DNA of 30,509 nucleotides, from positions 1 to 30,509 of IMG/VR virus record IMGVR_UViG_3300027418_000032; one strand, given 5' to 3'. This document shows positions 2,573-13,869 of the stretch, piece after piece; the stretch's first letter is position 1; each line of letters opens with the position of its first letter. Source of the stretch: a virus. Under the pieces are notes generated by a model, which worked only from the letters and a program-made list of their open reading frames with translations, had not been told where the DNA came from and made no database searches. The position numbers were made by a program, and so were the translations under genes.

Positions 2573-3262
2573 ATGGCAACAACTGTTTATAAAACTGGAT
2601 TAATCACATTAATGGATGGGACAGAGTTAGAACTGTCTCCTCTTAAAATTAAACATCTAAGATATTTTATGGATAAATTTGAAAATGTTAAATCCGCACA
2701 AGACGACATAGAGGCAATAGAAGCCTTGTCTGATTGTGCACAAATTTGTATGAAACAGTTTAAGCCAGAGATCGCTATTTCAAAAGAAATATTTGAAGAG
2801 TACGTTGATATAAAAACTGTATACGCAATTCTTGACATTACTGCTGGTATTAAGATTGATAAAGAATCAGAAGAACCAGTAAAAAAGCAAGCAGTGGATT
2901 CAGGTTCAACATGGGAAACCTTAGACTTAGCAACATTAGAGTCTGAGGTTTTTTTGCTCGGCATCTGGAAAGACTATGAAGAACTTGAACTATCCTTATC
3001 TATGTCAGAATTAACGGCTACATTAAACATAAGTCGTGACTTAGACTATCAAGGAAAGAAATTTATGGCAGCAATTCAAGGTGTTGACCTAGATAAGCAA
3101 AGCGGTAGAGATCAAGGAAATGCCTGGGAAGAAATGAAAGCAAGGGTATATTCTAAGGGTCAGGCAAGTAACGCAAAAGACATACTCGCACTACAAGGCG
3201 CAAACGCAGCAAAGGCTGGATTCGGTATTGGTATGGGATTATCATACGAAAAGATTGAATAA
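2573..3262 (+). CDS. Tail assembly chaperone, uninterrupted G-T-like fusion
   Basis: Encodes 229 residues from an ATG that lacks a Shine-Dalgarno sequence but sits just after an extended -10. Residues about 10-95 (ITLMDGTELELSPLKIK onward, with a later MKQFKPE) match the complete next gene product along its length, so they form a G-like domain. After a Lys/Glu linker, residues about 112-195 (ESEVFLLGIWKDYEELELS, then KKFMAAIQGVDLD) resemble the T-domain extension of siphovirus chaperones. Such proteins bind the tape measure and recruit tail tube subunits during assembly. In most siphoviruses the T part is reached only by a -1 frameshift; here it is in the same frame, so the fusion should be the default product. 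Two in-phase slippery heptamers (2881-2887, 2950-2956) lie between or at the edge of the domains. The family call is good; the mechanism is open. Confidence 0.75.
   Translation: MATTVYKTGLITLMDGTELELSPLKIKHLRYFMDKFENVKSAQDDIEAIEALSDCAQICMKQFKPEIAISKEIFEEYVDIKTVYAILDITAGIKIDKESEEPVKKQAVDSGSTWETLDLATLESEVFLLGIWKDYEELELSLSMSELTATLNISRDLDYQGKKFMAAIQGVDLDKQSGRDQGNAWEEMKARVYSKGQASNAKDILALQGANAAKAGFGIGMGLSYEKIE
2881..2887 (+). other. In-phase slippery heptamer A_AAA_AAG
   Basis: In the reading frame of the G-T-like gene the codons are gtA AAA AAG, the X_XXY_YYZ pattern also used by dnaX of Escherichia coli. A -1 shift would add 19 residues and stop at TGA 2944-2946, giving about 124 residues, close to a G-only length. 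The same heptamer also occurs in phase in the tape measure gene (5790-5796), so chance occurrence in this AT-rich DNA is possible. Confidence 0.35.
2950..2956 (+). other. In-phase slippery heptamer T_TTT_TTG
   Basis: The codons gtT TTT TTG form a second X_XXY_YYZ heptamer at the start of the T-like domain. A -1 shift would add seven residues and stop at TGA 2977-2979, for a product of about 135 residues. No strong downstream stem-loop was recognised by eye, so use in the cell is uncertain. Confidence 0.3.
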
Positions 3263-3277
3263 AAATAAGCCTGTTTG

Positions 3278-3286
3278 TGGTATAAT
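3278..3286 (+). promoter_or_regulatory. Extended -10 promoter before the second chaperone gene
   Basis: TGGTATAAT with a perfect TATAAT (3281-3286) lies in the 49-base gap between the two chaperone genes. A weak TTGAAT (3255-3260) is 20 bases upstream, longer than the usual spacer. A start near 3293 leaves a short leader with the GGAGG site at 3302-3306 in front of the ATG at 3312. Confidence 0.55.
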
Positions 3287-3311
3287 TAACTAACCTACAT
3301 TGGAGGAACAA

Positions 3312-3629
3312 ATGACAGACCAGAATAACAGCATCCACCTTATGGATGAAACAGAAATAAAGATCAGACCGCTAAAGATATCTCTACTAAAGCCATTCCT
3401 AAAAGAATTTAAAAGCCTAGAGAAGGTTGCGGATAATGATGAAAAATCTATGGACGTTTTGCTTAACTGTGTTCAAATTGCACTTAAGCAGTATGCTCCA
3501 GAATTAGCAGAGGACAGAGCAAAGATTGAGGACAGTATTGACCTTCCTACAATCTACAAGATTATTGACGTTGCTTCAGGTATTAACTTAACTGACACAG
3601 CATCACTTCTTGGTTCAGTCCCAAAGTAA
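3312..3629 (+). CDS. Tail assembly chaperone, G-like, paralogue of the preceding gene
   Basis: Encodes 105 residues. A TTG at 3300 is in frame, but GGAGG (3302-3306) followed by ATG at 3312 marks the start. The protein aligns almost end to end with residues about 9-95 of the upstream product: shared blocks include LMD-TE, PLKI, a Cys-x-Gln-Ile then Lys-Gln-x-x-Pro-Glu block, and the C-terminal ID-x-x-T-x-Y-x-I-x-D run. I judge roughly 30 percent identity by eye with one gap. It has no T-like domain, and neither shifted frame after its stop continues into the tape measure gene. It should therefore be the short chaperone form, present in excess over the fusion. Its last codons form C_CCA_AAG directly before the TAA, which by a -1 shift would add only nine residues. 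Confidence 0.7.
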   Translation: MTDQNNSIHLMDETEIKIRPLKISLLKPFLKEFKSLEKVADNDEKSMDVLLNCVQIALKQYAPELAEDRAKIEDSIDLPTIYKIIDVASGINLTDTASLLGSVPK

Positions 3630-3642
3630 GAGGGTGTTATGA

Positions 3643-6600
3643 TTGTCTGACGTAAATGCTAATATAGGTATTAATTTTGATACCCAGCAAGCACTTGCAT
3701 CTTTACGTCAGTTACAGGCGGGACTTAGCCGTTTCAATCAATCCCTAACACAGGGGAATATCGCTGCTGAGAATGCACAAAAGGGTTTAAATGCCCAGTT
3801 GATGCAATCTATCAATGCCACTGGAAAGTTTGTAGCATCTCAAAAAGTTGTTGCAGGCAGTACATCAGCATTTACAACAGCCTTAGAAAAGAATCAACTC
3901 TCTATGGGAGAGTACTTTAGATTTACTGCAGCAGCAGCGACAGCAAACACTAAAGTCTTTTCTAAGATGTTTGCTCATGAACGAGACATATTTAATCGTG
4001 CTCGTAAGGATAGAGTAAAGTCTTTACAGACTCAATACATACAATTAACTAGCGCCAATGGTGAACTAGTAAAGGTTCTTCAGGTAGTTCCAAAGCACCT
4101 TCAGATGGTCAATGGCAAGTATGCAGACTATGCTACAAGAACTCAGATGGCTGCACAAAGACAACAGATGATGAATCAGTTGCTCAAGCAAGGTTCGACT
4201 CAACTTCTAAACTTTGGTAAGAATACTCAATGGGCAGGTCGCCAGTTGATGGTTGGTCTTACAGTCCCTCTCACAATGCTTGGAGGATTTGCCTCTAAGG
4301 TTTTCAGGGAGATGGAACAGTCAGTAATCGCATTCACAAGAGTTTATGGAGACATGACTACAAGTGGAGATGCAACTAATAAAGCAATTGCAGACATCCA
4401 AAGACTTGCAAAAGAATTTACAAAGTATGGAATCGCAGCAAAAGATACTATAGAGATGGCTGCCAAAGCAGCAGCAATGGGTTTAACTGGAAACGATTTA
4501 AATGCACAAGTAATATCAGCAACAAGGCTTGCTGTTCTTGGTCAAGTGGAACAACAACAAGCACTCGAAACAACTATTTCTCTTCAAAACGCTTTTGGAA
4601 TTTCTTCAGAACAACTTGCAGAAAAGATTAACTTTCTTAACGCAGTAGAAAACCAGACAGTACTTTCTATTGAAGACTTAACTATTGCAGTTCCAAAGGC
4701 TGGACCAGTTATAAAGCAACTAGGTGGATCTGTAGAAGATCTTGCATTCTTTATGACTGCAATGAAGGAAGGTGGAATCAACGCATCAGAAGGTGCTAAC
4801 GCACTTAAGTCTGGTCTTGCTTCTATGATTAATCCTTCTAAGAAGGCAGCAGGATTCCTTGCAGATCTTGGTATCAACATAAAGGGTCTTGTTGAAGCAA
4901 ACGCTGGAAACCTTAAAGGAACAGTCATTGGTTTTGCAAAAGCACTTGACACACTAGATCCACTAAATAGAGCAAGAGCAATTGAACAAATGTTTGGTAA
5001 GTTCCAATTTGCTCGTCTATCAACATTATTTCAAAACGTAACAAAAGATAGTTCACAGGCTGCTAGAGCACTTGGACTTGCTGGAGCATCAGTTGAAGAA
5101 TTAGCAATCTTATCTGAGAGAGAACTTGGAAAAGTAGAAGATGCTGTTGGAGTTAAATTCCAAAAAAGTATTGAACAATTAAAATTAGAACTCATTCCAA
5201 TTGGAAAGACATTCCTACAAGCGCTAACACCAGTAGTTGAATTTCTTGGTAAGATTTTAGCGAAGTTTAATAACTTTAGCGATGGAACTAAAAAGGCTTT
5301 TGCAATTGTTATTGGAGTTGTAGGGGGACTTGCCCCAGTTGCACTGATGACATTTGGTCTATTCATGAACGCTATTGCAAACGGCATTAAGTTATTTGCT
5401 GCCCTTCGTAGTGGAATGGCAAAACTAAATGGTCAGAACAATGTACTAGGTGGAGGATTTGATTACCTTACACAACAAGAGATTGAACAACTAGCACAGA
5501 CTAACGCCCTTCACACATCTCACCAACAATTAATTAGCACATTTAATGTGGAGTCTGGAGCAGTTAATGCTCTTGCTGCAGCCTATGCAAATGCAGCAAG
5601 CCAAGCAAGAACTCTTGCAGCATCATCACCAGGATTATTTAATACAGTTCCAGGACCAGTAGGCGCAGTTGCAGGTTTACCACCTGTTCAAAAGTTTGCA
5701 AAAGGCGGAGTTGTTCCAGGTACAGGAAATAAAGACACCGTACCTTCAATGCTTACTCCTGGAGAAGTTGTACTAACTACAGATACTGTAAAAAAGAATC
5801 CAGAACTTGTTGCAGCACTTCTTACTGGCACTGTAAAGAAGTATGGTACAAGTACTCAGTCTGAAGGTGGAGGAATGAAGCCTCCTAAACTAGGCATAGC
5901 AAGTGTTACAGAAATGATGTCTATGGGTATAGATGATTTTGCAGCAGAGATTGGAAAACTTGGAAAAGGTGCTTCTCAAGCAACAGCCATTGCAGAAGTT
6001 AAGTTAGAATTAACTAAAGCGACAGACCGTGCAGGAGAAGATATGGCAAATGCAATTAAAAGAATGCTTGCAGAAGCAGCACAGTCTGTTGAAAAGGTAT
6101 CTGCTGATTGGGTAAAAAATAGAGCAAAAGATATTAATCCAGAAACTGGGGAACAGTGGAGAGCGCCATATGCAAATACATCTTCAACACCATGGCAGCC
6201 AAGTGATCCAGCAAGAGCACAAGTAGAACCAGGCGGTAGATATGTTGCTGCTCACATGGAAGCACCAAAGCCAAAGATTACAGACAAAGCCGAGTTAGAA
6301 CGTCTTGCAGTTCTTGCTGGAAAATCAGGCCTAGGCGAAGCCCTTGCTCTCGCAGCAAAACATGGTGGCTCTGCAACACCAATGGGCAGTTTTACAGCGA
6401 TGCTTCCAGAAGAAGCAAACAAAACAACTGCTTTAAATTTGTCTGACCCTAACGATGTAGCGATCCACTCTCAACTTGCAGCAAGAAGAGGGTTAGCGCC
6501 AGCACAATTTTCTGGTGACGATGCAAAAGTATTTGAAATGCCTAAGTCTGGAATACAGGATTTATTTAGTGGAGAAGATGCAGGTAAGTCTCTTTCTCCA

Positions 6601-9600
6601 GTAATGAGAGAAATTGCAAGACTTCATGGCAAAACCTTTGAACAAGGTCTTAACGACCCAGCAATTATGTCAGAGATGACTGCTGGTGTTGATAAGTTTG
6701 GTGGATTTATTGCAGAAGAGATGGACCAACTTCCAGATAAATTTGGAGAAGAAGATTTTTATGCAGCGGTGCAAAGAGCAAAAGATAGACTCACTCAAGC
6801 AGACGGAAAATTAAAAGAAGCAGTAGATAATCTAGGATTAACAACTACTTACTCAGTAACTACAAATGCGCCTAAAGAAGACGGCTCAAGAGATAGAAGA
6901 GCAAACAGAAAAGATGTTCCACAAAAGGCCCCCGCATTAAGAGACGAACTTGGACTTACAGATGCAGGAGTTGCAACAACAACACCTAAAGGAAAAACAA
7001 AAGTAATTCCTTTTGGCTCTTATCAAAAAAAGAATACAGACAATTTAGATTCTGGAGACATTATAGATCAACAAAGAGAGAAAGATAATGCTCCAACTGT
7101 TGAGGCTACCCCAGAAGAAATAGCAGCAGCAGAAGCAGCAGGTGCAGAGATTGGTAAAGCAGCAGCAGACGGAGTAAGAAGTACAGAAGGAACAGATGCA
7201 GACTCTCCATCTAAAAAGGGTATCAAGGCTGGTAAAGAAGTTGCAGACGGAATTATCCAAGGAATGAAAGAAGGAGAAGCAGCAGTAACTACGCAGGCTT
7301 CGCAACTTGGAGATGCAGCAGTACCAACAGCAGCAGAAACACAAGCAAGAGTTGATAGGATGGATCTTGGTAACAAGGCGTTCTATGATGATCTCAATAC
7401 CCCAGAGATGCGTGATGAAAGACAAATACTTAAGTCTCAAGATAGACAAAGAAGAAAACTAGGCGCTACAGCAACAGTAGATTCTGTATCTGACACTCCA
7501 GTTTCTGCACAAACTTCATCTGTAACTGTTGCTTCATCAAAGAGGGTAGCAGAAGCAACAACGAAACTAGCAGTAAAAACTGAAGAAGCCGTGACTGCTC
7601 AATCACAAGTTGTTCAACAGATTAAAGATGAAAGCAGATCAAGAGTTACGATTAAAGGCAACACTGTTAATATTCAGAAGGCTAGGGAAGATGCTGATAA
7701 GGCTGAAAATGAAGCAGCGATTACAAGAGCAAGAGCAGCAGCCCTTGAAAAGGAGCAAGCAAAGCAAAAGAAAACTGGATCTCCAACTACCATTACTGAC
7801 GAGCAAGTTCTTGCTGCTAAAGAAAAGGCTAATGCTGCAGAACTAGAGTACGCAAGAGTAAGACAAGAATTGGCAGAGCAGGGAATTACTGCAGCACAGC
7901 CAGGGGAAATGCAAGAAATTATTAATCAAGATCCAGTAAAGACTCCATCAAAGGTTAAAAAGGCAGAAGAAATTATGTCTAACGGAACCGTTGAAGCAGG
8001 AGATGGAATGCGACGAATTGTTGACGGGACAAATGACACAGCAGACTCAACCCTATTAGTTGCAGATCAAACAGGCGATCTTGCAGATGCAACTGGAGAA
8101 GCATTTATTACTCAAACAGGAAGCAATCAAAACCTACTAACGGCTTCTCAACTAGCAAGCGTAACTGCTGGAAATCTTGGTGATGTGGCTAATGCAACAG
8201 ATCTAACAGGAAATGCTCAGCAAGATGTGCTTGAGTCAACACAGGCCATTGATGAACAAAATAGAAAAATTGAAGAACATAAGCGAATGCAACTCAAGGT
8301 AATGCAAGAAGAGTTTGCTAGAAGAGAAGCAATTGCTAATGCTCCTGTAATACCAGAAGGAACTCAATCAGGGAATCCTGTACTGGGTCCAAATCCTATG
8401 GACAGATTAGAGGCCTACGACTATGCAATGGGTAGAGATCCAGGAACATATGGACCAGATGATCTGGGAGAACAAGGATTCACAAGAGACCGAAAAGGTC
8501 GTATTGTTATGGATCCAGAAAAAGATGCTAAGGGAAAATATAATCCAACAAAGATGTCTTTGAAGCAAGTTAAAGAAAAGAAGCGTGGCATGCGTAGAGC
8601 AGCCGTTGGTCAGTTTTCTGGAAAAGTTTCAGGTGGACTTGGAACTGCAGCAATGGTTGCTGGTATGGCAGGAGCACCACCACAAGTTACAGCAGCACTT
8701 GGTACTGCAGCGACAGTAGCACAGTTTGCTCCAATGATTGCGGGGACTGGACCAATTGGTCTTGCAGTAGGAGCAGTAGTAGCATTAGGAGCAGCAGCAT
8801 ATCTAGTAAACAAACACTTTAATCAGGTGGCTGCAAAGGCAGCACAGTTCGCAAAAGACTTATCAGCAACTAGAGATGGATTAAAAGCAATAGGAGAAAT
8901 GTCTGGCAAGGTTGGGTCTTCTCAAAAGATGGACAAGCGCAGATCAAAGACTCAGTATACAAAATATACTGACGCTGTAAAGATTGATAATACTTTTGGC
9001 AAGAACTACATGGCTTCTGATATTGGTAAAAAAGAAAAGAAACTATTTAAAGAAAACATGGAAAAGTTTGGAAAGAGCAAAGCCGTTAGTGATCTAACTT
9101 TAAAACTTGCCACGGCTGTTGCAGATGGAGTTATTGATGCTGACCAAGCAAACAGTATTGCAGCAGGCCTTGCCTTACAACTTAAAGACACATCAATTGA
9201 AATGCAGGTTGTTGGTCAACTATCAATGATCCTTGGCCCAGACGGTAAAAATCTAAAAGACAACCCAATGTCTACAAGGATCTTGCTTATGGGCAAGGCA
9301 AACCAAAGAACTGCAAAACTTGAAAAAGACATTTCTAAAAAGTCTGGGTTTGGAGAAAGTTCAAGAGAAGAAGTAGCACAACTTGCAGCCCTTGGCATGA
9401 ACAATATGGAAATGGCTACTATGATGGCAGATCAAATTCAAGTAGAGTATGAGGCTGCAAAACAAAAATTAGAAACAGAGTTAGCATCAACAGCAAATGC
9501 ACAAAAGAAACTGGAGATTGAACAACAACTTTCTGATCTTAATTCAGAGAATCTAAAAAATTCTCAATTTATGAATGATCAAATCTTTTCTCAGATAATG

Positions 9601-12600
9601 AAAAATCAGCAGAGTTTTGATAAAGTCTGGAGCGGTTCTGTTTGGGGCAAGCAGGCTATGCGTGAAGATGCATTCTTTGATGCATCAAGATCACAAGTTA
9701 CCTCAACCTATAAAGGAACAGACCAAGAAGATGCTGCTAAAAAGTTCTTAAATAAAACAGAGGCACTTTCAAATGATACAACCACTGGAAAGTATAACTC
9801 TAAGACTGGTGAGTATGTAAAGACTGGATTGGGTACTGCTCAAAATGCACAGAGGTTCCAGGCAAAGATGGAAATGCTTGTTGGAAGTAAAGTCTTAACT
9901 CCTACACAAGCAACAAGTTACATGGACCTATTTAGTGGCAAATTAAATGAGTTCGACTTCTTACTTAATGCTAGCATTAAAACAAAGGGAACAGCAAAAA
10001 CTAAAGAGTTGTTTGATTCATTTGCAGGCTTCAAGAGTACAAAAGGAAGGCAGCAAGCAACAAACATCATTACAGAAATGACAATGAGAAAGAAAGATCC
10101 AAAAGAATTTGATGCAATTATGGAAACTATCAGAAGCCTACAGGCTTTAGATGGAAATACCATTGACTTTGAGATTTTGATTACAAAGGTTGGAATGAAG
10201 GGCCTTCAGAAAATCAGGAAAGAGCAAGAAGCAATCGAAAAAATAAAAGAAGCAGCAGAAAAAGAAGGCAAAAAATCTCTTGTTTCAAAAGATGCTACTG
10301 GAAAAGAAACTGTTGATCCACGAGTAGCAGGAGTTAGCGCAGATATTTCAGAAGGAATTGCTGCGTTACAGAAAAATGAAAAAAGGTTTACCGCATTTAA
10401 AAACGCAAGCACAGCAGCCCAAGCGGATTACTTACAGGCACTATCAGCAAATATTTTATGGGAATCAACCGCTAATGCTGCAGAGCGAGATGCAGATATT
10501 GCATTTATGGCAGAGCAGTATGCATTAGATCAAGCAATGACTCACAACTTCTCTACAACTAGCCAGCGATACATTGATCTAGTAGCACAGAAAATTGCAG
10601 ACCTTAAGGCTTTAAGTCCAACAGAATATGCAGTTGAAAAAACTGGTATTTCATGGAACCCTGGTGTAACTTATACATCCCCACCACCAACAACAAGCAA
10701 GGGTCCTGGCACAGGTAGTGATCCTCTAGACTTCCTAGACGAACTTGCAATGAGAATTAAGAATGTTCGTGATGGCGCATTTGATGCAACTAAGCCTCTT
10801 CAATCAATGATTGCAGCCTTTACTAGCAAGAAAGCCAAAAAAGATGTATCAGCAATGTTTGACATGTTTGATGGCTTGCAACACAGATTACTTAAATTAA
10901 AAGTTCCACAAGAAATGAGAGACGTTATCTCTGGTATGAGTTCAGAAGAGTTTACAAAGTTCTCTAACTTGGGCAAGGGAAAGAATTTATTTACTTATGA
11001 TAAATACACCTCTGGGCCAAACAAGGGTAAAGAAAAGCCAAAAACAAAGAAAAATATTAAGGGACTAACCAATGAAGGTAAGGCTGTTATGGCTACCTAC
11101 CGTGAAGCAAATGTAGGTGCCTCACAACTAGTAAATAAAGAAACTGTTGTAAATGTTAATGAACAAAAGAAGGCCATGAACATGCTCATGTCTGCTGGTC
11201 TATCAGCAAAGGATGCTTTAGCAGCAGTTGAAGATCAGTTAGTGGCATCGGCTATTGCTAATGGTGCTATGGGAGAATCTGGAACTAAAGAGTTTAAAGA
11301 ATACAAGAAGGCTATTGTAGAGGCTAATAGCGCTCTTGAAAGACAAGCCATTCTTCAAAACTTAACTCAAAAGAATGCAGATTTTAAATTTTCCGTACAA
11401 GCCCAAGATTTTGCAAAAGCCTTTGCAGATGCAGGTCTATCTATTGAACAAATTAATGAAGTGCTTGAAGACCCACAACTTACTGGTCAACTTATAGACG
11501 ATCTTAAAAATGGTAGAGTTGCTGCAGAACATATAAGAGACTACATAAACTCAATACCTAAAAGACTTGAAGTATCTTTGACGACTAAAATCAATTCAGG
11601 AGATCTAAAGGGCGGAGCAGAGCCAGGTCTTGAAATTGTTGATCAAATGTTTTCAATCCAAGAAGCACTAATCCGTGCAGGCGCTGCCGATGCTGCATCC
11701 GCAGCCAATGTTAAAATAATTGAAGAGAATGAGAAATTAATTGAACAAGAAGAAGCAAAACTACGTGCTTTGCAAGAGACTCAAGTTGTAAGAGAAAGTC
11801 TTGCTGGAGTTTTAAAGGGTACTGCAGCAGGGGCTTTTGAAGGCACAAAAATGAATTATCAAGACCTACAGGATGCTGCTAAAGCAATGAGCGATCAAAT
11901 TGAAGTAGCACAAAGAGACCTTGAAATGAATGCTGAGTACGGATCAAGAGCAATAGACGATCTAAATGAAAGTGTAAACGATTTAAACAGAGACATGGAA
12001 ATGAATAAGGACTGGGGTTCTAGAGCAGTTCAAGCATTACAAGATGAGTCAGGGGTCTTGTCACATGACTTAGATTTAATTAATAAGGCTGCAGAAGGTG
12101 TTAATGAAAAATACGATAAACAAGCAGAGGCCCTTCAAAAAGTTCAACAGATTAATCAAAATATTCTTGCTTTGCAACAAGATCAATTAGACCTTGCTGG
12201 TGCTTTAACTTCTGGAGATATTTCTTCGGCAGCAAAGGCTGCTCAAAAGATGAGAGCCACTGCTGCTGGACAATTTGCTTCAGGACAAACTGATGCACTT
12301 GAGCAAGCAAGAAAGAATTCTATAGACTCTCTAAAGAGTGGATCTGGAATGACAAGCAAGCAGATCCAAGACAGACAGTACGAGATTGCTGAAAAGATTT
12401 ATAAGATGGAAACCCACCCTGATAAACTTAAAACGCAAAAGCAAATTCAAGAAACTCAAGATAAGATTTATACTCTTGAAGAAAAGCGTAAACTCAAGAT
12501 GGACGAAATTCAGAAAATTGAAGATGCTATTTATCTTGTTAATAAAGAACTTGCAAAAGACGACGGGGCTATTGACAAGATAAACAGAAAACTAACTAGT

Positions 12601-13869
12601 TACAACACAGCCCTCAGCGATGCACAAAAAGCAATTGATAAGCAAGTGGCAGAGATTACGGTAATGGGTACTGATAAAAAAGGTTGGGATTTAGTAAAGA
12701 CTAAGTTAGAGGCCTATGATCTTGCTAAGAATTGGGAAAGTGTAAAAACTAAGTTGGCTGGACTTCTTGCGTCTACTACTGCTATGGAAAAAGACTGGGG
12801 AAATATTCACAATTGGCTAGACCAGTTTATGAAGATGCCTGCTGATAAAAAAGTAAATATTAATGTTATAACAAAGTATACCTATGAAGGAACTCCTCCT
12901 CCTGGAGCAGACAATGTAACTCTAGACGGCTGCCCTGAAGGAATGGTAGCAGATGCAAATGGATGGTGTGTAAATGTTCACAAGGTTCTACCTTCTGGTA
13001 CACCTAATTCATCAGGAACGCCAACGCCTTCACCAAGCAAGACTGCTTCTCCAACACCAACAACTACGACTTCTCCAAAACCATCAACTACTTCAACACC
13101 AACAAAGAGTACAACATCGACCCCAACATCATCTGGAACACCAACACCAACACCGACTGGCCCAAAGGTCGGAGACACAAAGTATGTCGGTTCGATGTTA
13201 ATGACATGGAATGGCACAATGTGGATGGATCAAGTTGCATATAATAATGCAAAGGTTGCTCCAAAAGTTGGAGAAACAAAGTATGTAGGTTCCGACCTAA
13301 TGACCTGGAATGGTTCACAGTGGGTTACTCAAGTTGCATATAATGCTAAGAAGATTGCAGATCAAAAGGCTAAAGACTTAGCAGAGAAAGTAGCAGCAGA
13401 ACAAGCAAAAAATAGAGCACTTGTTGCAGCACTTGAGGCCAAGGCAGCATTAATTCCAAAATCACGCACTAAGCCAGGAACTGGAACTTATCTTGGCGGA
13501 ATGTTTATTCCACCAGTAACACAATATTTGCAACCAGGAACTGGAGTTGTAGTTAACGGTGTATTGAGAGATCCAGTATACAAGTATTCTGGAGGTTTGA
13601 TTGGTATGACCCCACGTGGATCAGACACTGTTCCAGCAATGCTTACACCAGGAGAGTTTATTATGAGCAAGTATGCTGTTGATAACTTTGGAGTAAATAA
13701 CTTAAAGGCCATTAACAGCGGATCTACAAGTGTCGGTGGAGACTCAGTGTATAATTATAACCTAACAGTAAATGCAAAATCTAATGCCAGCCCAGATGAT
13801 ATTGCAAGAACTGTTATGGCTCAGATCCAACAGATTGATTCACAAAGAATTCGGGGAGTAAGAATATAA
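3643..13869 (+). CDS. Tape measure protein (3408 aa)
   Basis: The protein sets tail length and is ejected with the DNA. A TTG start at 3643 follows AAGAGGGTG at a normal spacing; the nearby ATG at 3640 hits an immediate stop. Residues about 215-420 carry the TP901-type tape measure core (AKEFTKYGIAAKDTIEMAAK and following). Hydrophobic, Gly/Ala-rich segments lie at about 552-580 and 1666-1715, the usual membrane-insertion candidates. Long alpha-helical Ala/Lys/Glu/Gln tracts fill the middle. At the usual 1.5 angstrom per residue the length predicts a tail of about 0.5 micrometre. Unusual elements: the motif DTVPSMLTPGE at about residue 700 recurs as DTVPAMLTPGE at about 3328; a 25-residue repeat near 2758; the only two cysteines (3097, 3109) before a Pro/Thr/Ser linker; and a 33-residue tandem repeat. 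I see no lysozyme or peptidase motif. Confidence 0.95.
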   Translation: MSDVNANIGINFDTQQALASLRQLQAGLSRFNQSLTQGNIAAENAQKGLNAQLMQSINATGKFVASQKVVAGSTSAFTTALEKNQLSMGEYFRFTAAAATANTKVFSKMFAHERDIFNRARKDRVKSLQTQYIQLTSANGELVKVLQVVPKHLQMVNGKYADYATRTQMAAQRQQMMNQLLKQGSTQLLNFGKNTQWAGRQLMVGLTVPLTMLGGFASKVFREMEQSVIAFTRVYGDMTTSGDATNKAIADIQRLAKEFTKYGIAAKDTIEMAAKAAAMGLTGNDLNAQVISATRLAVLGQVEQQQALETTISLQNAFGISSEQLAEKINFLNAVENQTVLSIEDLTIAVPKAGPVIKQLGGSVEDLAFFMTAMKEGGINASEGANALKSGLASMINPSKKAAGFLADLGINIKGLVEANAGNLKGTVIGFAKALDTLDPLNRARAIEQMFGKFQFARLSTLFQNVTKDSSQAARALGLAGASVEELAILSERELGKVEDAVGVKFQKSIEQLKLELIPIGKTFLQALTPVVEFLGKILAKFNNFSDGTKKAFAIVIGVVGGLAPVALMTFGLFMNAIANGIKLFAALRSGMAKLNGQNNVLGGGFDYLTQQEIEQLAQTNALHTSHQQLISTFNVESGAVNALAAAYANAASQARTLAASSPGLFNTVPGPVGAVAGLPPVQKFAKGGVVPGTGNKDTVPSMLTPGEVVLTTDTVKKNPELVAALLTGTVKKYGTSTQSEGGGMKPPKLGIASVTEMMSMGIDDFAAEIGKLGKGASQATAIAEVKLELTKATDRAGEDMANAIKRMLAEAAQSVEKVSADWVKNRAKDINPETGEQWRAPYANTSSTPWQPSDPARAQVEPGGRYVAAHMEAPKPKITDKAELERLAVLAGKSGLGEALALAAKHGGSATPMGSFTAMLPEEANKTTALNLSDPNDVAIHSQLAARRGLAPAQFSGDDAKVFEMPKSGIQDLFSGEDAGKSLSPVMREIARLHGKTFEQGLNDPAIMSEMTAGVDKFGGFIAEEMDQLPDKFGEEDFYAAVQRAKDRLTQADGKLKEAVDNLGLTTTYSVTTNAPKEDGSRDRRANRKDVPQKAPALRDELGLTDAGVATTTPKGKTKVIPFGSYQKKNTDNLDSGDIIDQQREKDNAPTVEATPEEIAAAEAAGAEIGKAAADGVRSTEGTDADSPSKKGIKAGKEVADGIIQGMKEGEAAVTTQASQLGDAAVPTAAETQARVDRMDLGNKAFYDDLNTPEMRDERQILKSQDRQRRKLGATATVDSVSDTPVSAQTSSVTVASSKRVAEATTKLAVKTEEAVTAQSQVVQQIKDESRSRVTIKGNTVNIQKAREDADKAENEAAITRARAAALEKEQAKQKKTGSPTTITDEQVLAAKEKANAAELEYARVRQELAEQGITAAQPGEMQEIINQDPVKTPSKVKKAEEIMSNGTVEAGDGMRRIVDGTNDTADSTLLVADQTGDLADATGEAFITQTGSNQNLLTASQLASVTAGNLGDVANATDLTGNAQQDVLESTQAIDEQNRKIEEHKRMQLKVMQEEFARREAIANAPVIPEGTQSGNPVLGPNPMDRLEAYDYAMGRDPGTYGPDDLGEQGFTRDRKGRIVMDPEKDAKGKYNPTKMSLKQVKEKKRGMRRAAVGQFSGKVSGGLGTAAMVAGMAGAPPQVTAALGTAATVAQFAPMIAGTGPIGLAVGAVVALGAAAYLVNKHFNQVAAKAAQFAKDLSATRDGLKAIGEMSGKVGSSQKMDKRRSKTQYTKYTDAVKIDNTFGKNYMASDIGKKEKKLFKENMEKFGKSKAVSDLTLKLATAVADGVIDADQANSIAAGLALQLKDTSIEMQVVGQLSMILGPDGKNLKDNPMSTRILLMGKANQRTAKLEKDISKKSGFGESSREEVAQLAALGMNNMEMATMMADQIQVEYEAAKQKLETELASTANAQKKLEIEQQLSDLNSENLKNSQFMNDQIFSQIMKNQQSFDKVWSGSVWGKQAMREDAFFDASRSQVTSTYKGTDQEDAAKKFLNKTEALSNDTTTGKYNSKTGEYVKTGLGTAQNAQRFQAKMEMLVGSKVLTPTQATSYMDLFSGKLNEFDFLLNASIKTKGTAKTKELFDSFAGFKSTKGRQQATNIITEMTMRKKDPKEFDAIMETIRSLQALDGNTIDFEILITKVGMKGLQKIRKEQEAIEKIKEAAEKEGKKSLVSKDATGKETVDPRVAGVSADISEGIAALQKNEKRFTAFKNASTAAQADYLQALSANILWESTANAAERDADIAFMAEQYALDQAMTHNFSTTSQRYIDLVAQKIADLKALSPTEYAVEKTGISWNPGVTYTSPPPTTSKGPGTGSDPLDFLDELAMRIKNVRDGAFDATKPLQSMIAAFTSKKAKKDVSAMFDMFDGLQHRLLKLKVPQEMRDVISGMSSEEFTKFSNLGKGKNLFTYDKYTSGPNKGKEKPKTKKNIKGLTNEGKAVMATYREANVGASQLVNKETVVNVNEQKKAMNMLMSAGLSAKDALAAVEDQLVASAIANGAMGESGTKEFKEYKKAIVEANSALERQAILQNLTQKNADFKFSVQAQDFAKAFADAGLSIEQINEVLEDPQLTGQLIDDLKNGRVAAEHIRDYINSIPKRLEVSLTTKINSGDLKGGAEPGLEIVDQMFSIQEALIRAGAADAASAANVKIIEENEKLIEQEEAKLRALQETQVVRESLAGVLKGTAAGAFEGTKMNYQDLQDAAKAMSDQIEVAQRDLEMNAEYGSRAIDDLNESVNDLNRDMEMNKDWGSRAVQALQDESGVLSHDLDLINKAAEGVNEKYDKQAEALQKVQQINQNILALQQDQLDLAGALTSGDISSAAKAAQKMRATAAGQFASGQTDALEQARKNSIDSLKSGSGMTSKQIQDRQYEIAEKIYKMETHPDKLKTQKQIQETQDKIYTLEEKRKLKMDEIQKIEDAIYLVNKELAKDDGAIDKINRKLTSYNTALSDAQKAIDKQVAEITVMGTDKKGWDLVKTKLEAYDLAKNWESVKTKLAGLLASTTAMEKDWGNIHNWLDQFMKMPADKKVNINVITKYTYEGTPPPGADNVTLDGCPEGMVADANGWCVNVHKVLPSGTPNSSGTPTPSPSKTASPTPTTTTSPKPSTTSTPTKSTTSTPTSSGTPTPTPTGPKVGDTKYVGSMLMTWNGTMWMDQVAYNNAKVAPKVGETKYVGSDLMTWNGSQWVTQVAYNAKKIADQKAKDLAEKVAAEQAKNRALVAALEAKAALIPKSRTKPGTGTYLGGMFIPPVTQYLQPGTGVVVNGVLRDPVYKYSGGLIGMTPRGSDTVPAMLTPGEFIMSKYAVDNFGVNNLKAINSGSTSVGGDSVYNYNLTVNAKSNASPDDIARTVMAQIQQIDSQRIRGVRI
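11914..12063 (+). repeat. Two tandem 25-residue repeats in the tape measure
   Basis: Units 11914-11988 and 11989-12063 encode matching segments, RDLEMNAEYGSRAIDDLN and RDMEMNKDWGSRAVQALQ, each followed by seven less conserved residues. The units share R-D-x-E-M-N, G-S-R-A and a spaced Leu pattern. They fit a coiled-coil or helical-rod duplication of the kind that lengthens tape measures. Confidence 0.7.
12931..13161 (+). other. Two-cysteine loop and Pro/Thr/Ser linker in the tape measure
   Basis: Cys3097 and Cys3109 bound a short loop (CPEGMVADANGWC). I found no other cysteine in the 3408 residues. It is followed by a low-complexity stretch (residues about 3117-3173) made almost wholly of Pro, Thr, Ser, Gly and Lys. 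Such linkers normally separate exposed domains on secreted or surface proteins. Finding one inside a tape measure is unusual. Confidence 0.75.
13162..13359 (+). repeat. Two tandem 33-residue W-N-G repeats in the tape measure
   Basis: Units 13162-13260 and 13261-13359 each encode 33 residues of the form PKVG-[DE]-TKYVGS-x-LMTWNG followed by a Trp and Q-V-A-Y-N. They are most alike at both ends and differ in the middle and at synonymous sites, so the duplication is not recent. The pattern of Gly turns and two Trp per unit suggests a small beta hairpin module as in fibre or wall-binding proteins; its function here is unknown. Confidence 0.85.

Follow-up and report, generated by a model that had tools for sequence, protein, structure and literature searches.

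In the 30,509-nt viral DNA analysed here (the window; IMG/VR virus record IMGVR_UViG_3300027418_000032, positions 1 to 30,509), the short and long tail assembly chaperones are encoded by two separate genes, and it is likely that gene duplication, in-frame fusion and two different initiation modes have replaced ribosomal frameshifting, with GT as the long chaperone, G2 as the short one, and their ratio set by expression. Most long-tailed phages obtain the short and long forms from one gene by occasional ribosome slippage, and this G/G-T frameshift, which is among the most conserved recoding events in phages, is usually thought to be needed for a critical ratio.

All genes and signals described here lie on the forward strand. 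GT extends from ATG 2573 to TAA 3262 as a single uninterrupted frame of 229 aa in which domain G (residues ~1-98) is fused in frame to domain T (residues ~110-229), and it is followed by the G-only paralogue G2, which encodes 105 aa from ATG 3312 to TAA 3629 (the mechanical ORF starts at TTG 3300). The two genes occupy the position of a chaperone pair, being flanked upstream by a major tail protein gene (1876-2505) that matches PHROG 2175 ('protein with Ig domain', E 1.2e-32) and downstream by a tape measure protein gene (3643-13869; 3408 aa, TTG start) whose first 452 aa match the tape measure family PHROG 10030 (E 8.8e-68). Synteny supports the upstream assignment, because the gene at the same position in the Streptomyces relatives BoomerJR, TunaTartare, and Circinus is annotated either 'major tail protein' or 'protein with Ig domain'. 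An intrinsic terminator hairpin at 2528-2553, composed of a perfect 9-bp stem (GACCCAGAC/GTCTGGGTC) and a T-rich tract, parts the major tail protein gene from GT. No terminator is seen in the sequence between G2 and the tape measure gene, which starts 13 nt downstream of G2.

BLASTP alignment of the N-terminal domains of GT and G2 covers 86 aa at 38% identity (E 3e-21), and a comparison of family profiles, made with 39 relatives of GT and 26 of G2, extends over the entire G domain (E 3.4e-35, 99.9% probability). In addition, PHROG 10504 matches both proteins and PHROG 10474 matches only the C-terminal half of GT (residues 131-205), so that the short form consists of the shared N-terminal domain, to which the long form adds a C-terminal T domain. 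The nature of this second domain can be read from annotated relatives, which in the phage collection comprise 127 Streptomyces phage records and no others; those examined belong to the Stanwilliamsviridae wherever a family is given. In these phages the match to GT is split between two frames, that of an annotated tail assembly chaperone gene and that of the ORF after it, and TunaTartare has an explicit joined frameshift CDS that matches GT. Homology between GT and the frameshift product continues across the T region, including the F-L-L-G-x-W-K motif, and the C-terminal half of GT is therefore, as judged by alignment, homologous to the T region that lies in the -1 frame of the Streptomyces Stanwilliamsviridae. 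The sequence-only reading had proposed that the 229-aa and 105-aa products share a G domain and that a T-like extension, read without a frameshift, is limited to the first; both proposals stand, as do the two points on which they were most exposed, namely the T-likeness of the C-terminal half and the relatedness of the second gene at the profile level.

An alignment-based AlphaFold2 model of GT (mean pLDDT 73, with ~90 in the G domain and an uncertain end from residue 173) matches a tail assembly chaperone in a viral structure library at E 9e-5 with a probability of 1.00. Together with the homology to annotated Stanwilliamsviridae chaperones, this match likens the pair to recognised chaperones. 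Weaker structural matches of GT are the chaperones of Arthrobacter phage Kitkat and Staphylococcus phage 6ec, and the chaperone 'frameshift protein' of Enterococcus phage EfaCPT1. Weak matches in family libraries include Phage_TAC_19, GP24_25, and PHROG 330, 393 and 344, and PDB searches by sequence and by fold gave no matching solved structure. Pfam matches to Rubis-subs-bind, SGTA_dimer, DUF4778, and TetR_C_12 were sub-threshold or implausible for these proteins and were taken as chance, and a single-sequence structure prediction (pLDDT 34.5) was unusable, for which reason the alignment-based model was employed instead. Two chaperone-like BFVD models, A0A7D5JPD3 (273 aa) and A0A7D5JTE0 (150 aa), match GT at E 1e-7 and 0.06, respectively, and have similar accessions; they may represent the long form and the short form of some other phage.

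Scans of viral contigs, in each of which the best 80 of 568-597 confirmed relatives were kept, gave 159 distinct loci among the matches listed after removal of identical loci, and these were classed by reading frame and by the presence of a second G; the sample is biased toward neighbours of the query sequences, and its counts are not independent events. G and T are fused in frame at 136 of the 159 loci and split by a -1 shift at the other 23. Among these matches, G2 is found directly downstream of GT in all 131 fused loci with enough sequence (the remaining five retain at most 137 nt of downstream sequence), and a second G occurs in none of the 23 split loci. The 159 loci contain no exception to the association of fusion with G2 and of the split state with its absence, and the search of related phages suggested by the sequence-only reading thereby returned the pair of one short and one in-frame fused gene in 131 distinct loci besides the window. 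This comparative pattern represents one evolutionary event rather than 131 independent ones. A scan of the contigs of genomes found one relative only, L170 (CAINGU010000031.1, ~110 kb), which is split-type and actinophage-like; it sits in a metagenome-assembled genome labelled as a cyanobacterium, and is probably a mis-binned phage contig. That the window is itself a metagenomic virus record raises the question of whether duplication and fusion are artefacts of assembly or of the metagenome. We regard this as practically excluded, given that the same arrangement recurs on many contigs, that the paralogues have diverged to the identity given above and are separately conserved, and that three further contigs match the window at 99.9% or more, so that independent assemblies refute it.

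A 92-kb viral contig agrees with the window at 99.98% over 18.3 kb, and this contig is among the 13 of 17 large fused-clade contigs that encode WhiB. Since WhiB is restricted to Actinobacteria (PMC10202952), its presence points to actinobacterial hosts, and the fused-clade phages are a widespread aquatic group that probably infects such hosts. Within the tail module, to which this comparison is confined, the window and the Stanwilliamsviridae have homologous major tail protein, G/T and tape measure genes in the same order, but chaperone identity is only ~40-45% and the two form separate clades.

Slippery heptamers of the form C_CCA_AAY are present in 21 of the 23 split loci listed (C_CCA_AAT in 11 and C_CCA_AAC in 10), always at one fixed place, L-N/T-D-P-N-L-L, with CCCGGAA substituting in two Boydwoodruffvirinae loci; a slip at this place yields a product equivalent to fused GT. 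The fused genes have, instead of the slip-site stretch, a longer linker that contains no conserved heptamer, and T is read in the frame of G, unlike in lambda-type genes, where a slippery site close to the end of G leads into a shifted frame. GT might, of course, still yield a short form by recoding, in which case G2 would be an extra gene and nothing would have been replaced, and the linker of the window does contain A_AAA_AAG (2881-2887) in the right phase, where a -1 slip would add 19 codons before a stop. Any heptamer at all, however, occurs in only 25 of the 136 fused loci listed, mostly as A-runs in Lys codons, as against the single fixed site of the split loci, and the predicted length of the extension varies among relatives. 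We therefore judge the heptamer to be a chance occurrence, reject residual recoding at this site because it is not conserved, and consider retention of recoding by GT to be very improbable. Frameshift extension of G2 was likewise rejected, as the alternate frames of most loci listed close within a few codons of the end of G2, and in the window only 13 nt separate G2 from the tape measure gene. The C-terminal tail of G2 (L-x-D-...-LL) resembles the zero-frame tail of split G with the heptamer broken, reading S-G-I-N-L-T-D-T-A-S-L-L in the window and S-G-I-Q-L-T-D-P-T-A-L-L in locus L247, compared to G-G-L-K-L-T-D-P-N-L-L in split G.

In a maximum-likelihood tree of 83 G domains (110 columns), the GT N-domains, G2, and split G each fall on one side of a branch, with support of 93, 97 and 99, respectively, and two label changes, the minimum, suffice to explain the labels. 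This separation indicates a single duplication, after which the pair was kept together; it is retained even where the identity between fused proteins falls to 47%. The tree is unrooted, and its rooting is argued from outgroups and from the resemblance of the G2 tail to that of split G. This resemblance, together with the wide use of the -1 G/G-T frameshift in other long-tailed phages (PMC5009743), indicates that the split state is ancestral and the two-gene state derived.

The depth of the divergence invites a different view of G2, as a paralogue that has taken on a new job, such as binding another part of a long tape measure or acting as a decoy, and that no longer serves as the short chaperone. 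The G domains of GT and G2 are in separate clades, each with a long stem of its own (0.59 and 0.46 changes per site), they share only ~38% identity, and the tape measure is longer in seven of the nine fused-clade phages examined. G2 has, however, lost no part of the domain, its ancestral expression layout and its position beside the tape measure gene are preserved, and no other source of a G-only protein is seen in the fused loci listed, all of which makes a new job unlikely, and favours G2 as the short chaperone. As to tape measure length itself, 3408 aa in the window predicts a tail of ~0.5 micrometre by our own estimate at 1.5 Angstrom per residue; the protein has 2780-3491 aa in the seven fused-clade phages mentioned, ~2010-2045 aa in the other two, and 1995-2132 aa in each of the four split-clade phages examined. 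The idea that a longer tape measure caused the switch is at best suggestive and was set aside, as two of the nine fused-clade phages resemble the split clade at ~2000 aa.

The start signals of GT and G2 are as the sequence-only reading had described them, and across relatives they are far above chance. GT is preceded by an extended -10 element at 2558-2566 (TGT-TATACT, TGTTATACT), which a spacer of 6 nt separates from the ATG, and there is no Shine-Dalgarno sequence. An extended -10 (TGnTAnnnT) ends 5-10 nt, most often exactly 6, before the ATG of GT in 133 of 135 loci listed, and a Shine-Dalgarno sequence is absent from all 135; among the 696 other ORFs of 120 aa or more in these loci, only 12 share this layout, as do 2.1% of shuffled upstream sequences. 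With the -10 hexamer of the window at 2561-2566, transcription is predicted to begin on or next to the A of ATG 2573, and the transcript would be leaderless. G2 has a consensus extended -10 at 3278-3286 (TGG-TATAAT, TGGTATAAT) and a GGAGG Shine-Dalgarno sequence at 3302-3306. Its extended -10 occurs in 125 of 125 loci listed (with TG in every one and the consensus TATAAT in 124), mostly 23-30 nt before the start; a Shine-Dalgarno-type motif occurs in 122, and the combination of -10, leader, and Shine-Dalgarno in 121. In the split clade the same leadered layout precedes the lone G gene in 21 of 23 loci listed, and G2 therefore retains the ancestral mode, the new one being that of GT. Moreover, the -10 of GT is off consensus in 119 of 135 loci listed (TATACT, TAGAAT and TAAAAT among them), which would be expected of GT as the less abundant product. 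Of the fused loci listed, 133 of 135 carry the terminator hairpin 5' of GT, and 22 of the 23 split loci carry it 5' of G; the hairpin would protect GT from being overwhelmed by the abundant transcript of the major tail protein gene. Against the proposed two-gene replacement, transcription that begins at the GT promoter probably continues into G2. In Actinobacteria leaderless mRNAs are frequent and are translated well, which makes this mode plausible here, yet also means that a leaderless start is not by itself weak.

In the window an extended -10 promoter-like site stands before each of three consecutive tail genes, that of the major tail protein gene being at 1816-1824 (TGTTATAAT, located, like the other two, by pattern scan), whereas many phages have a single late operon. 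Of 124 fused loci listed, 76 have such a site 5' of the gene for the major tail protein, and an extended -10 without a clear -35 looks like the standard promoter of the clade. In five loci (L044, L056, L068, L073, and L080) the GT frame extends to 234-236 aa, apparently into the G2 promoter, and the -10 of G2 would then sit within the GT coding region.

The proposal of the sequence-only reading that gene duplication has replaced recoding gains support from the strict segregation of the fused and split states with the paralogue, from the single duplication in the tree, and from a start contrast conserved in more than 120 loci listed. In the following scheme the evolutionary steps can be read from the sequences, and from these we infer the transcript starts, relative expression, chaperone activity, and ratio control. 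An ancestor of these actinobacterial long-tailed phages would have made both gpG (TAC-N) and gpG-T (TAC-NC) from one gene by -1 programmed ribosomal frameshifting, and the gene was duplicated once in this clade. One copy, now GT, lost the slip site, joined G in frame to T, and gained a start, predicted to be leaderless, from an off-consensus extended -10 right after the major tail protein terminator; the other, now G2, kept G only, with the ancestral promoter layout, leader and Shine-Dalgarno sequence. Made in excess from its consensus promoter and Shine-Dalgarno sequence, along with the downstream tape measure protein, G2 would coat the tape measure, and the scarcer GT would join through its G domain, allowing T to recruit the tail tube protein. 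The short-to-long ratio would then probably be set by gene expression, through two promoters and two initiation modes, and not by ribosome slippage. These domain roles are carried over from lambda, in which gpG in excess binds the tape measure and the T part recruits the tail tube protein (PMC5009743), and they are assigned here by analogy; lambda differs in that gpG and gpGT come from one gene by -1 frameshifting at about 30:1. A more tentative idea, to which we give little weight, is that a fixed, ribosome-encoded stoichiometry became tunable through leaderless GT and leadered G2 mRNAs, with G:GT varying with the state of the host's translation machinery, to which leaderless and Shine-Dalgarno-led initiation respond differently, and free to evolve with longer tape measures.

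The closest known systems are the homologous G/T chaperones of the Stanwilliamsviridae (TunaTartare gp36/37, BoomerJR gp59/60, Circinus gp34/35), which likewise lie between the genes for the major tail protein and the tape measure, follow a terminator, and have a -10 and leader for G, the latter like G2. They differ from the window in having one G gene without a paralogue and T in the -1 frame, with slip sites of C_CCA_AAT in Loccivirinae and near CCCGGAA in Boydwoodruffvirinae. The split-type environmental relatives, L170 and the IMG/VR contigs L172, L178, L189, L227, L233, and L236, have the same layout; G of the IMG/VR contigs is 62-77% identical to that of L170, and the long form of L170 is ~41% identical to fused GT. 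Unlike the window, they have a -1 shift at C_CCA_AAC, a leadered G and no paralogue. As described in PMC10885494, citing Vladimirov et al. 2022, some T4-like phages employ a short chaperone gene and a longer in-frame fused gene instead of frameshifting, so that on this description the two-gene principle is already known. T4-like phages are a different virus lineage, and the window is likened to them by arrangement. According to PMC7302621, some subclusters of Microbacterium cluster EA phages have two ORFs and no evident frameshift. In the literature searched we found no report of the arrangement in this clade, of its slip-site ancestor, or of the conserved leaderless/leadered contrast.

For annotation, the finding means that pipelines seeking a slippery site will miss or misname such genes. 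It also means that two-gene solutions arose outside the T4-like phages. A whole clade without the frameshift, the ancestral state of which is alive in sister phages, constitutes a large natural experiment that makes it testable whether frameshifting itself matters to these phages or only the ratio.
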